Program-made: the position numbers and the translations under genes
The notes under the pieces: model-generated
Database searches by the model: none
Seen by the model: the letters and a program-made list of their open reading frames with translations, nothing else
Told to the model about the DNA's origin: nothing
In this document: positions 5,520 through 24,797 of the stretch, piece by piece
How positions within the stretch are numbered: position 1 is the first letter of the stretch
How the letters are laid out: each line of letters opens with the position of its first letter
Virus record (IMG/VR): IMGVR_UViG_3300002835_001028
Location: 1-24,797 of that record
Origin: a virus
Length of the DNA: 24,797 nucleotides
Reading direction: 5' to 3' (one strand)

Positions 5520-7733
5520 CTATTTTATATTTTTAAATGGAGATCTTTTTACATTTTGTCCTCCTGATGAACTACCTGAAGTCCTCCCCATATGACGGAA
5601 AGGACTACTGTTTAATTTAAACAAATTTTCTGACTTCTGCAAGTTTTTGGCTGCATCATCCATGATGACTCTCTTAGCATAACCTCTGTTTGCTTGCTGT
5701 ATTCTCATGAATGCAACCAGTGCACAAAATGCTACAAGCCTATCCACATTGACTCCATCTGAGTATGCACCCATTTCTTTTAGCAACATAATATCTGGTA
5801 TCCTTTCAATACCATATTTAGTTCTTACAATAGTACCATCAGATTTAGTTTCAACATCTAATTCTTCTTTAGTATATTCTATAGCATAACTTAATAAGTG
5901 AGCTTTGAATAATGTTCCTGTATTCTTCCAACCATACTCTTGATATACTGAATTATTAGAACCAAGATCTTTTAAGAACATTATTTGACTTTTTGGTACT
6001 AAGTACTTCTGCTTCTTTCTAGAGATCATGTACTGGATAAATAATGAGATGTTATTCTCAATTACTGTCCAGGCATTATACCATTCTATTATTGTCTCAA
6101 GTCTTTGGTGAGTTTTATTAATATCATCAAACCTTCCGCACCAAGCTGCTACAATTTTATCTGGTTCTATATATGTTTCAGTTTCTATACCTGTAACCTT
6201 TGTTACTTCTACAGGAGCTTTCATTATATATATAGAACACAAAGATTCAGATGTAGTTGTTTTACCTTCAGCTACGGGGTCAATAGAAGCATAGTACATT
6301 CCAAAGTTAGGATTCTCAACGGGTCTTTCCCATACTACAAGAACTCCTGTTTTATCTTCAGTATTTTTTGTAATTGGAAATTCTGTAATTGGTCTTTTAT
6401 TACTATGCTCAGGAAGTATCTTTCCATTGGCATCTCTACCTAAATCTAAGAACTCATATGGGTAATCTTTATCTTCAATTCTTCTTTGTTGTGCTGTTAC
6501 CAAATGCATTGGAAACTTAGATACTGTTCTGTTAGCAAAAGCTTCTTCAATATTTCTTGGATGCTGAGAAATCCTTAACTGATATGTTTCCGGATCAAGT
6601 TCTTTTTTCCATTTTTCAAACTGATCATCTAATGCTTCTAATGCTTCTTGTACTTTAGAATTTCCAAAGTTATCAATATAGGGAGGCATAGACCATTGCT
6701 CAGGTATAAATAACCCAGATTTTCCTACAGAACCTTTATTATCTAGCAAATCAGTTTCTACAGAGTATATATCATTTTCAGTTGGATACAGAATCATTTT
6801 TCTTAATGGTTCACATTGAGATAAATCCCCCACTGATCCTGCTGCAATAAACATACCTGTAGTAGTTAAACCAGATCTCATTGCAGGACGCATATACTCA
6901 TATGTATTATTCATTCTTGGAGCAATACCAGCCTCCTCATGGAAGAAGTACTTAACCGGACCCCCTACACCATTTGTTGGATCTTTCTCAAATGACATAC
7001 CTTGAATAGTACCTTTAAGACCTACTTCTGTTTTTCTGTCCCCTCTCCTTACCTCAATCTTCTGTTGCCACATCATCACTTTGTCTGGAGACATAGGTCT
7101 ATACCATGCTGTATGTTCATTAAGAAAAGCCGCGTACTCTTGTAAAAACTTCCAGGAACCTTTCTCATTAATGTAGTCTTTAAGGCTGGCACCAATCTTT
7201 AGAGTAACCCCTTCTTCAAACCATTGCTGGTTAAGAAGTTTAGCCATGTGATAATAAGAAGAAGCTATCTGTCTTTTCTTTAGAATAGCTACATGGTTAT
7301 AATTTAATTCTGATAGTATTTCATAAAGAGCCATGTGATATTGAGCATCTCTAATATCAGCAAAACCAAACTTTTGTATTTCTTTGTTGAAGATGGGTAA
7401 GAAGTTTAACCACATATAGTAGTCTCTAGTCATATACCAGACTTTACCTTTTTCTTTAATCAAGAGTCCTCTTCTGCATTTTGCTTTCTGATCATCCCAG
7501 TATGTTATAAAATCTTTAGATTTAAAAGGAGCTGTACAATAAACTTTGTCTTTATTAAACTTTGCAGATTCTTGTGTAAATAAATTTGCGGTAGTATCAT
7601 TAAACTCATACTTACCAGGTTCTTTAAAAACATTGGTTAATAAGTATTCATAGAATTCTTCTCTTGAGTTAAAGTCAGTAGAAGCCCATGTACCATTATC
7701 CCATGTAGGTATGTCTTGATATATTTCTCTCAT
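5520..7733 (-). CDS. terL: Terminase large subunit (ATPase-nuclease)
   Basis: This 737-residue DNA-packaging motor has an N-terminal ATPase and a C-terminal RNase H-fold nuclease. The Walker A region is at about residues 152-161 (KKRQIASSYY) and is degenerate, lacking the canonical GK[ST]. Walker B is at 262-267 (YFFHEE), and a coupling-type AAGS segment is at 297-300. The nuclease triad candidates are Asp485 (in ASIDP), Glu559 (in VIEN) and Asp664 (in VNVDRL). The length is at the upper end for large terminases but fits crAss-like phages. The gene starts two bases after the stop of the preceding 171-residue gene and is followed two bases later by the portal, so the three are probably translated from one transcript. 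It should act at the portal vertex, cutting and pumping concatemeric DNA into proheads. Confidence 0.93.
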   Translation of the reverse strand: MREIYQDIPTWDNGTWASTDFNSREEFYEYLLTNVFKEPGKYEFNDTTANLFTQESAKFNKDKVYCTAPFKSKDFITYWDDQKAKCRRGLLIKEKGKVWYMTRDYYMWLNFLPIFNKEIQKFGFADIRDAQYHMALYEILSELNYNHVAILKKRQIASSYYHMAKLLNQQWFEEGVTLKIGASLKDYINEKGSWKFLQEYAAFLNEHTAWYRPMSPDKVMMWQQKIEVRRGDRKTEVGLKGTIQGMSFEKDPTNGVGGPVKYFFHEEAGIAPRMNNTYEYMRPAMRSGLTTTGMFIAAGSVGDLSQCEPLRKMILYPTENDIYSVETDLLDNKGSVGKSGLFIPEQWSMPPYIDNFGNSKVQEALEALDDQFEKWKKELDPETYQLRISQHPRNIEEAFANRTVSKFPMHLVTAQQRRIEDKDYPYEFLDLGRDANGKILPEHSNKRPITEFPITKNTEDKTGVLVVWERPVENPNFGMYYASIDPVAEGKTTTSESLCSIYIMKAPVEVTKVTGIETETYIEPDKIVAAWCGRFDDINKTHQRLETIIEWYNAWTVIENNISLFIQYMISRKKQKYLVPKSQIMFLKDLGSNNSVYQEYGWKNTGTLFKAHLLSYAIEYTKEELDVETKSDGTIVRTKYGIERIPDIMLLKEMGAYSDGVNVDRLVAFCALVAFMRIQQANRGYAKRVIMDDAAKNLQKSENLFKLNSSPFRHMGRTSGSSSGGQNVKRSPFKNIK

Positions 7734-23356: not shown

Positions 23357-23571
23357 CACGCATCAAATTTATTGTTCATAAAATTTATTGGTAGCTTTTC
23401 TTCAGGTTCTATGTCATCATACTCACGTATGAGTAATTCAAACTTAACCTTTTCTAATAAACCTACTAAAACTGGAATAGCTGCACTATCAACATTTCCA
23501 ACTTTAACTTCAAAATTATTATTACTAGTTATTACTACTTCAATAATTGTTACAGGTTCTCGCTTCTTCAT
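23356..23571 (-). CDS. Hypothetical protein
   Basis: The 71-residue product begins with a beta strand (VTIIEVVITSNNNFEVKVGN), then has a helix (AAIPVLVGLLEKVKFELLIREYD) and an acidic-to-polar tail ending PINFMNNKFDA. It contains no Cys and no membrane segment. The gene lies between the HExxH protein gene (21-base A/T-rich gap) and the first of the tandem paralogues (one-base TGATG overlap). The gap carries minus-strand TATATTTG, a match to the Bacteroidota -7 element, so a weak internal promoter is possible. No family is recognised. Confidence 0.65.
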   Translation of the reverse strand: MKKREPVTIIEVVITSNNNFEVKVGNVDSAAIPVLVGLLEKVKFELLIREYDDIEPEEKLPINFMNNKFDA

Positions 23572-23592
23572 ATACCAACAAATATATAAAAA

Positions 23593-24036
23593 TTATTTAC
23601 TAAAGAAACCTTTTTTAGGTTGTTCTTTTTTATCAAACCCTAACTTTGCAATAATCTTGTTAGCCTCTTCTTCAGCAAAGGTTACAGCTTCCTCTTCTTT
23701 ATCCTTGATATTATAGTTATCTAAAAGTATAGCCATGTGCATAGTTTCATGCATAACAGCTGTACATTTTTCTGTAAGAGAGTATCTACTAAACGTACCA
23801 AGATTAATAAACAAGAAAGGTTTGTATGGAGCTTTAGCAGTTAGTTTCTTATCCCGCGGATCATAATTATTCCACCCATAGATATATACACCGTTACCAA
23901 CAGTCTTATCTACTTCTTCTGCCTGAGCATCTTTACGGTTTAACCCGTGCATTTCTTCTACTCCATAATAATCAAAAGGTTCTGTTGCATCTTTACCAAC
24001 AAGGAGAACATATTTCCCCATATCTATCTTTTTCAT
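23593..24036 (-). CDS. HExxH zinc metallopeptidase-like protein
   Basis: The 147-residue product has a HETMH motif (HExxH, residues 96-100) in the helix TEKCTAVMHETMHMAILL, and downstream acidic residues (KDKEEEAVTFAEEEANKII, ~111-129) that could give the third zinc ligand of a gluzincin-type site. A beta-rich N-terminal half (~1-85) precedes it, ending in PFLFINLGTFSRYS, the edge-strand position typical of zincins. There is no signal peptide; the C-terminus is Lys-rich. It is the first gene of the minus-strand block, with the structured leader directly upstream. It might cut a host regulator (as ImmA-like peptidases do) or a phage protein; the substrate is unknown. Confidence 0.7.
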   Translation of the reverse strand: MKKIDMGKYVLLVGKDATEPFDYYGVEEMHGLNRKDAQAEEVDKTVGNGVYIYGWNNYDPRDKKLTAKAPYKPFLFINLGTFSRYSLTEKCTAVMHETMHMAILLDNYNIKDKEEEAVTFAEEEANKIIAKLGFDKKEQPKKGFFSK

Positions 24037-24065
24037 GTAAATAATTTTTGATACACAAATTTAAA

Positions 24066-24112
24066 ACAAAAAACCCAGATAGTAATCTCTGGCCAAGAGA
24101 ACTTTTCTGGGT
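24066..24112 (-). terminator. Intrinsic terminator or attenuator upstream of the minus-strand block
   Basis: On the minus strand, ACCCAGA (24106-24112) pairs with TCTGGGT (24073-24079), enclosing an inner hairpin TCTCT/AGAGA (24096-24100 with 24086-24090), followed by TTTTTTGTTTT. It stands only 30 bases before the first gene of the block, so it could act as an attenuator rather than a simple terminator. Confidence 0.65.
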
Positions 24113-24235
24113 GTTGCTAACAGTTATACTTTACAGCTTTCCTGCGCAGAGAAGGCCAGAGAGTAAGCGAGCAGATCTTACGGTATGCCCTCCTGGCACT
24201 GAGCCTATAGATACTATCTACAGGGGAGGTATGAT

Positions 24236-24260
24236 AAAGAAAAACCCTGGCGAACCAGGG
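24236..24260 (-). terminator. Intrinsic terminator with UUCG loop at the upstream edge of the structured region
   Basis: On the minus strand, CCCTGG-TTCG-CCAGGG is a perfect 6-bp stem with the extra-stable UUCG tetraloop, followed by TTTTTCTTT. It would stop a leftward transcript started in 24261-24612. On the plus strand the hairpin has no T-run after it. Confidence 0.82.
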
Positions 24261-24315
24261 CTTGACATTTTAGGCAAATTTGGAAACAGGCCTATAAGCA
24301 AAAACACATACAAAT

Positions 24316-24414
24316 GTAACAACTTTTCCTACACCACATAATTTTTTTAATAAATTTTTTGAGTTGCTTATTTAACCCCCCATGTTACCAAGTAGTAACT
24401 TACCCCCTGGTAAC
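24316..24414. repeat. Cluster of GTTAC/GTAAC repeats
   Basis: GTAAC occurs at 24316-24320 and 24395-24399, GTTACCA at 24384-24390 and its complement TGGTAAC at 24408-24414, so four copies lie within 100 bases in both orientations. The last two form a 7-bp inverted repeat with a 17-base spacer. Such short clustered repeats could be binding sites for a replication initiator or regulator at the divergence point. No function is shown by sequence alone. Confidence 0.4.
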
Positions 24415-24508
24415 TTGATTTGGGTATTGGGAAATGTTGTATGTAGGAGATGGTGGTGACCCCCCTATTCCAAGCCCCCCGGCCTGCGCCACTAGCCTCC
24501 CACCCCCC
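24376..24508. other. Cluster of C-tracts (G-tracts on the minus strand)
   Basis: Within 133 bases there are runs C6 (24376-24381), C5 (24403-24407), C6 (24460-24465), C6 (24475-24480), C3 (24499-24501) and C6 (24503-24508). The surrounding genome is A/T-rich and has almost no such runs. The minus strand could form a G-quadruplex, although one loop of 18 bases is long. No gene can be supported here. Origin, packaging or regulatory roles are all open. Confidence 0.5.
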
Positions 24509-24522
24509 ATGCTTTGAGAGAG

Positions 24523-24582
24523 CTAACCCTTGAATCAAGAAATATAATAAACTTTTTCTTGACAGAAAAAGAACTAACCCTT
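24523..24582 (+). repeat. Operator-like repeats around the rightward promoter
   Basis: The 9-base direct repeat CTAACCCTT lies at 24523-24531 and 24574-24582, 51 bases apart (close to five helical turns), with the second copy inside the promoter spacer. Between them is the inverted repeat TCAAGAAA (24535-24542) and TTTCTTGA (24555-24562), whose right arm overlaps the -35 box. The layout suggests binding sites for one or two regulators. Confidence 0.4.
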
Positions 24583-24587
24583 ATCTA
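24559..24587 (+). promoter_or_regulatory. Sigma70-like promoter for the rightward gene
   Basis: TTGACA at 24559-24564 is followed after exactly 17 bases by TATCTA at 24582-24587, 25 bases before the ATG at 24613. The match to the general bacterial consensus is strong. It is not the usual Bacteroidota form (TTTG/TAnnTTTG), so use by the host's main sigma factor is not certain. Confidence 0.6.
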
Positions 24588-24612
24588 GAACTAAATATAA
24601 AATTTAGAAATC

Positions 24613-24797
24613 ATGGATAAAAAAGACAGGTTGTATACTTTCAGATGCAAAGTGTGCAAATCACAGCAAGATTGGGGATTCTTATTGATTGTTGTAGGCT
24701 TTGAAAATAAAGCCTTTACAATCAACAAGAACTATGCTACAAAGTGTGGTATGGTTCTTAATAGAATATATGATGTTACTGCAACCTTGAAAGAGGT
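24613..24797 (+). CDS. Hypothetical protein, rightward arm (partial, N-terminus only)
   Basis: An open frame of 61 codons starts at the ATG at 24613 and runs off the window. The N-terminus (MDKKDRLYTFRCKVCKSQQD) has a CxxC pair (Cys12, Cys15) and a further Cys around residue 45 (ATKCGMV), which may be part of a zinc site. The rest looks like small beta strands (WGFLLIVVGFENKAFTINKN, MVLNRIYDVTATLKEV). It is the first gene of the opposite-strand block, expected to carry early or replication functions, and has its own promoter. No family is recognised from this fragment. Confidence 0.6.
   Translation, partial: MDKKDRLYTFRCKVCKSQQDWGFLLIVVGFENKAFTINKNYATKCGMVLNRIYDVTATLKE

Follow-up and report, generated by a model that had tools for sequence, protein, structure and literature searches.

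A candidate family of structured RNAs with exchangeable head hairpins in crAss-like and gp23-bearing phages

Comparison of a virus record of 24,797 bases, analysed over its whole length and referred to below as the window, with related viral sequences points to a structured noncoding RNA on the minus strand at approximately 24068–24228, where compensatory base changes exceed those of shuffled controls. Its relatives occur in crAss-like and T4-like phages, frequently beside tRNA genes, and the same scaffold is also found with a second head. The element is best explained as a phage gene for a small RNA in its own right, and not as part of a gene. It very probably acts in trans, and the reading we consider somewhat probable overall is that of an accessory small RNA whose recognition hairpin is offered to a host factor.

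Fold, strand and position of the RNA in the window

The window is a portion of a crAss-like phage, because an ORF at 3–1400 (−) matches the Crass_capsid family (E = 6e−21) and another at 5520–7733 (−) matches a PHROG of terminase large subunits (E = 3e−56). The first-pass annotation had singled out 24066–24262 as a GC-rich region without a supported gene at the divergence point of the genome. In agreement with this, minus-strand genes extend up to 24036 and the next supported plus-strand ORF starts at 24613; GC content is 46.7% versus 32.6% for the whole window, and the plus-strand ORF at 24048–24341 (97 aa) is purely mechanical. The region does contain a structured RNA but is not a single block: a terminator-like site, T1 (24263–24242), ends a separate leader unit, and the RNA proper spans about 24228–24068. 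With a second terminator-like site at 24092–24075, the minus-strand terminators proposed to flank the region were both recovered in a scan of 23500–24797, which yielded four such sites on the two strands against a shuffled mean of 0.9. The next gene (23593–24036, −) encodes a protein of 147 aa with an HExxH motif (MHETMH, by eye) that matched no Pfam or PHROG family at E ≤ 0.001; 144 relatives of it were found among pattern-matched viral stretches. A tRNA search of the window found none.

The RNA of the window (L001) represents type A of the family and was delimited by covariation and by a covariance model built from relatives plus the window (R1), which scores it at 149.8 bits, the window copy being in the model by construction. 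From the 5′ end, the minus strand forms hairpin P1 (24204–24224, CCUGUAGAU-AGU-AUCUAUAGG), which, as had been claimed, is complete on this strand only, with one G-U pair. Among 53 relatives, six of its seven modelled pairs show two-sided changes and 97.5% of cells are paired. P2 (24155–24197), with arms at 24190–24197 and 24155–24163, likewise covaries (98.9% of cells paired, two-sided changes in two of five modelled pairs) and encloses the head, a hairpin conserved in relatives (GCAUACCGUAAGAUCUGC, 24171–24188) with a 3-bp GCA/UGC stem and a 12-nt loop UACCGUAAGAUC. P3 (24115–24148) has a conserved internal loop of GGAAA (24138–24142) and UAUAAC (24123–24128). It was missed by RNAalifold and revealed by an arm-swap test on the 26 distinct arm pairs out of 53 copies, in which own arms paired with a mean of −7.13 kcal/mol versus −3.87 kcal/mol for permuted arms (reached in 0/2000 permutations). 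The 3′ end is formed by P4 (24068–24112), the terminator hairpin T2, supported by the terminator scan and by covariation, with an inner helix (two-sided changes in 4/4 pairs), an outer helix (5/8 pairs) and a U run. Just behind T2 lies TAAATTTG (24056–24063, −), a promoter-like motif match belonging to the next gene.

Covariation was quantified on 53 aligned type A copies from IMG/VR, using 28 counted consensus pairs and 500 shuffles. The earlier inference of a functional RNA gained support here: 98.6% of cells were paired (shuffled, 85.4%), 17/28 pairs showed two-sided changes (11.1), 197 cells were changed on both sides (52.5) and the covariation score reached 0.426 (0.172), each unequalled in all 500 shuffles. 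The fifth measure, further pair types, was not above shuffles (36 versus 34.1; 94/500). Sliding partner columns by 1 to 3 lowered pairing to 30–46%. Compensatory changes had been named beforehand as the test, and they are present in P1, P2, P3 and the terminator stem on the minus strand claimed. One P1 pair is G-U in 29 and G-C in 21 of the 53 copies; since the G-U pairs of P1 would read A-C on the opposite strand, the minus strand is the RNA strand. By itself, folding energy proves little and leaves the strand open, being only modestly better than in shuffles and comparable for the minus (z = −2.41, 4/200 shuffles equally good) and plus strands (z = −2.29, 2/200); the comparison of relatives settles both. 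A pseudoknot suggested between CTCC at 24190–24193 and GGAG at 24225–24228 did not hold up, as GGAG is found there in 9 of 43 distinct relatives' contexts and any 4-nt complement in 15 of 43.

Relatives, heads and genomic company

With the neighbour gene at 23593–24036 as bait, we inspected the best 80 of the 144 stretches encoding its relatives, and R1 found the RNA in 21 of these 80, namely 20 whole or variant copies and one relic. In this relic (L043:4418-4543(+)), directly behind the HExxH gene, the 5′ half is lost and only P3 and the terminator are left. The exact core GCATACCNTNAGANCTGCTCNCT is present in at least 120 stretches; among the loci listed, it occurs 139 times, in 55 distinct type A (window-like) and 35 distinct other copies. 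Because these loci were chosen by exact core, the constancy of the head in them is partly a matter of choice and its conservation is inflated by selection. Finds made independently of the core include variant heads, namely GCAUCCC in L053, CUGCGC in L031 and CUGCCU in L299. At the same time, the head is conserved in relatives reached via the neighbour gene and via scaffold patterns. A head-blind scaffold pattern returned 36 stretches with 22 new loci, of which 11 were marked as duplicates; full inspection of the other 11 gave eight family members with GCAUCCCGUAAGA and three chance matches. The pair flanking GCA/UGC is A-U or G-U in the 53 copies and C-G in L031 and L319 (by eye), a replacement that supports the small head stem.

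The part common to the heads, GCAUMCCRUWAGAWCUGC, was found on at least two scaffolds. Type B, analysed in 27 distinct copies, is framed differently and has no terminator: it combines a 5′ hairpin and an H-type pseudoknot with a P2 that carries the same head and a P3 hairpin whose loop reads AUCGU. Its P2 and P3 covary (92.2% paired versus 70.0% in shuffles, score 0.547 versus 0.148, 0/500), with two-sided changes in 7 pairs versus 4.5 (18/500), and in the swap test its two pseudoknot stems gave −3.63 and −7.18 against −1.48 and −3.92 for permuted partners (0/2000 each; 24 distinct copies). Members of a third group (L163, L219, L256, L259 and others) match R1 at E = 4e−17 to 1e−6. A second scaffold pattern yielded 25 stretches and 19 new loci, comprising three copies with the usual head, one variant, four chance matches in other sequence and 11 copies that we termed class D. 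These have a window-type scaffold with another head, GAGACUGUUCUGCYACAGC..., and score 42–52 bits under R1 (E = 4e−9 to 5e−7) despite this difference. L293, L304 and L308 each have a usual copy next to a class D copy in tandem; neighbouring copies that differ in their heads suggest that specificity resides in the head. On the contig of L304 (also L290), a promoter-like TATCTTTG precedes both the usual and the class D copy (by eye). The class D copies of L293 and L308 show an internal duplication of the head.

Many copies lie close to tRNA genes: of 99 dereplicated loci, 42 have a tRNA no more than 300 nt away and 51 have one no more than 1 kb away, on the same strand throughout the cases listed. 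Type A often directly follows tRNA-Asn(GUU), and type B is often placed between tRNA-Met and tRNA-Ser or -Thr, with the preceding tRNA ending at about −37 and the following one starting at about +88. Phage contigs with type B copies also carry their own tmRNA (ARAGORN; L204:8672-9115(-) and L246:192-578(-)), and Rfam tmRNA was additionally found in L190. Crass_capsid was detected on 9 of 34 RNA-bearing contigs tested, and gp23, the major capsid protein of T4-type phages, on 4 of 23 further ones, the contigs often being fragments. The RNA therefore occurs in both crAss-like and gp23-bearing (T4-like) phages, from which it follows that it moves between lineages or is kept across them. It is also accessory, since neither R1 nor R2, a second covariance model of the family, finds it on 12 of the 17 contigs of relatives, five of these 12 being longer than 110 kb. 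Where present, R1 detected a single RNA per contig, weak opposite-strand overlaps aside, with two in G045. No protein neighbour within 3 kb is constant, the commonest protein cluster being found in 42/99 loci and following crAss-type synteny.

The TerL-anchored loci L095–L161, which stop short of the divergence point, gave no R1 match; the contig of L130, one of them, carries the RNA. Four blastn queries against isolate phages returned chance matches only (best E 1 to 9), including a 642-kb phage in which inspection found the RNA absent, and blastn against plasmids gave no convincing match. The exact core is absent from 84,980 prokaryote genomes, and scanning prokaryote genomes with DUF3310 as anchor recovered no relative. 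A literature search, with most subscription papers outside its reach, found no paper on this RNA.

Known RNAs and possible functions

The RNA had been noted as matching no known class, and in keeping with this no Rfam family reached its gathering score at the RNA in the loci of 12 relatives, where all 31 matches were tRNA, tmRNA or one group I intron. In the window, none of the Rfam 15 families (ROOL, GOLLD, 6S, Y RNA, ribozymes and riboswitches among them) reached its gathering score, and lax thresholds gave seven sub-threshold, chance-like matches, the best at 19 bits against 55. We place the RNA, as a new family, among the already known structured RNAs of phage tRNA regions, its exchangeable head being the new feature. 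PMC12286853 presents ROOL and GOLLD as RNAs of phages and prophages that frequently lie close to tRNA islands, with function unknown. Both are much longer than the RNA described here, and their Rfam models do not match it.

Ever since T4, phage tRNA clusters have been recognised as sites of small stable RNAs to which no function is assigned; those of T4, RNAC and RNAD (species 1 and 2 RNA), have gone unexplained for decades. Both lie inside the T4 tRNA cluster, and members of the new family are likewise often found among tRNAs (42/99 loci, though not in the window), also in gp23-bearing phages. RNAD contains GCUACCGGUAAG and RNAC UUUGCC(G/A)UAAG, near the GCAUACC(G/A)UAAG of the family, with the likeness centred on CC(G/A)UAAG. 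In a post hoc profile test, made after this likeness was seen, RNAD reached p = 0.03, T4 RNAC 0.21 (18 nt) and 0.12 (10 nt), and other relatives 0.04 to 0.98. Neither R1 on T4 nor R2 on T4 and seven T4-like relatives, eight loci in all, gave a match at rnaC/rnaD, and the ends of T4 RNAC resemble those of a tRNA and include a T-arm (by eye), features that the family here lacks. The resemblance is one of place and kind; these tests did not support homology, and a distant homologue of RNAC/RNAD sharing their function is distinctly unlikely. PMC9697503 describes the two as late RNAs of yet unknown function.

A cis-acting leader, in which the RNA and its terminator would sense a signal and gate transcription into the late genes (as an attenuator, riboswitch or antitermination RNA), would account for the terminator at the 3′ end, an arrangement shared with intrinsic attenuators and riboswitches, and for the placement ahead of a minus-strand gene run in the window. 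It would also suit the read-through of T1 that probably takes place in L015-like phages, because in these tRNA-Asn starts directly behind T1. Unlike in attenuators and riboswitches, however, the place relative to the gene is not kept: the RNA is upstream of the HExxH gene in the window and downstream of it in L031, L053 and the relic L043, and this shift from before to behind disfavours a cis switch. Moreover, type B has tRNAs after it in place of a terminator, T2 of the window is closely followed by a promoter-like TAnnTTTG, and a conserved antiterminator strand was not seen by eye, all of which makes a cis role rather unlikely. Patchy, accessory presence, spread over unrelated phages, exchangeable heads and one-sided relics such as L043 would be compatible with a counter-defence role, in which the RNA, retained in the accessory tRNA region, would block a host defence or toxin by serving as its decoy or mimic; but the head is far more constant than expected for an arms-race decoy, and we regard this role as unlikely. 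The position bordering the window's late gene block could hint at a packaging or virion RNA, which is nonetheless very improbable given the many near-relatives without the RNA, its presence in two phage groups that are unrelated and differ in their packaging proteins, and its tRNA context. Equally improbable is a self-cleaving ribozyme or processing element that trims adjacent tRNAs: the tight spacing of type B to tRNAs and the loop conserved across different scaffolds would fit, but Rfam ribozymes do not match, the window has no tRNA, and a constant cutting junction was not found.

Under the trans-acting reading that we prefer, the RNA would be transcribed from the phage's own small RNA gene or, where it abuts tRNAs, cut out of tRNA-bearing precursors. 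A point against this reading is that no TAnnTTTG is found in the window between T1 and the RNA, so that expression there would need either read-through of T1 or an unrecognised promoter. The transcript would fold into P1, P2 with the conserved head, P3 with the GGAAA/UAUAAC internal loop and the terminator hairpin, with the scaffold serving as a stable holder. We lean towards the head docking on a host factor; it would engage one conserved host macromolecule through protein binding or short base pairing, and docking would shift host gene expression in the phage's favour. When the head was compared with 113 phage tRNAs and tmRNAs, its complementarity to them did not exceed what shuffled heads showed (means −15.17 versus −14.84, sd 0.95, and −12.56 versus −11.68, sd 0.97). 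In a wider and more speculative version, which we think unlikely to be right, these RNAs would be modular riboregulators, with a common scaffold in the tRNA and late regions of unrelated phages, exchanged heads, sometimes two side by side, addressing different host factors, and T4 RNAC/RNAD as the enterobacterial branch. The family, which covaries strongly and occurs in crAss-like and T4-like environmental phages, comes with a well-delimited hairpin, with heads that vary in nature and with phages that have lost the RNA; these make the binding partners of such RNAs directly testable.

The leader unit and other conserved elements nearby

The leader unit upstream of the RNA consists, on the minus strand of the window, of a promoter-like TAnnTTTG (TACATTTG, 24311–24318), a hairpin UAGGC-CUGUUUCCAAAUUU-GCCUA with loop CUGUUUCC (24271–24294) identified by eye among relatives, and T1 (24242–24263). 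It stands 101 to 189 nt upstream of the core in 20 distinct sequences of relatives, in which the stem of the hairpin varies and its loop is constant (by eye, the loop motif having served as the search key). All 21 distinct upstream segments contain TAnnTTTG, which begins 23–30 nt ahead of the CUGUUUCC motif (in shuffles, 2.2 segments on average and at most 7); across the whole window the motif occurs at chance level (41 versus 40.45). The same motif stands immediately before RNA copies such as L025, L291 and L304 (by eye). We take TAnnTTTG to be a Bacteroidota promoter motif, which would suggest a Bacteroidota host.

Further conserved stretches were seen in the vicinity. A second GC-rich element, GCATGGGGGGTGGG...GGCCGGGGGG...GGGGGGTCACCACC, lies at 24380–24512 on the minus strand of the window, and elements with similar G runs were found in relatives L014, L027, L054, L061 and L069. 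Just upstream of the RNA in L237, L267, L310, L313 and L316 there is a GC-rich conserved stretch, GCGTACCAGGGTAGGTCTTTTGC or similar. Just downstream of it in L290, L304, L305, L306, L309 and L162, the short conserved stretch GGTCAGAGGCAAG(TCCTTGCAA) possibly represents a third small RNA.
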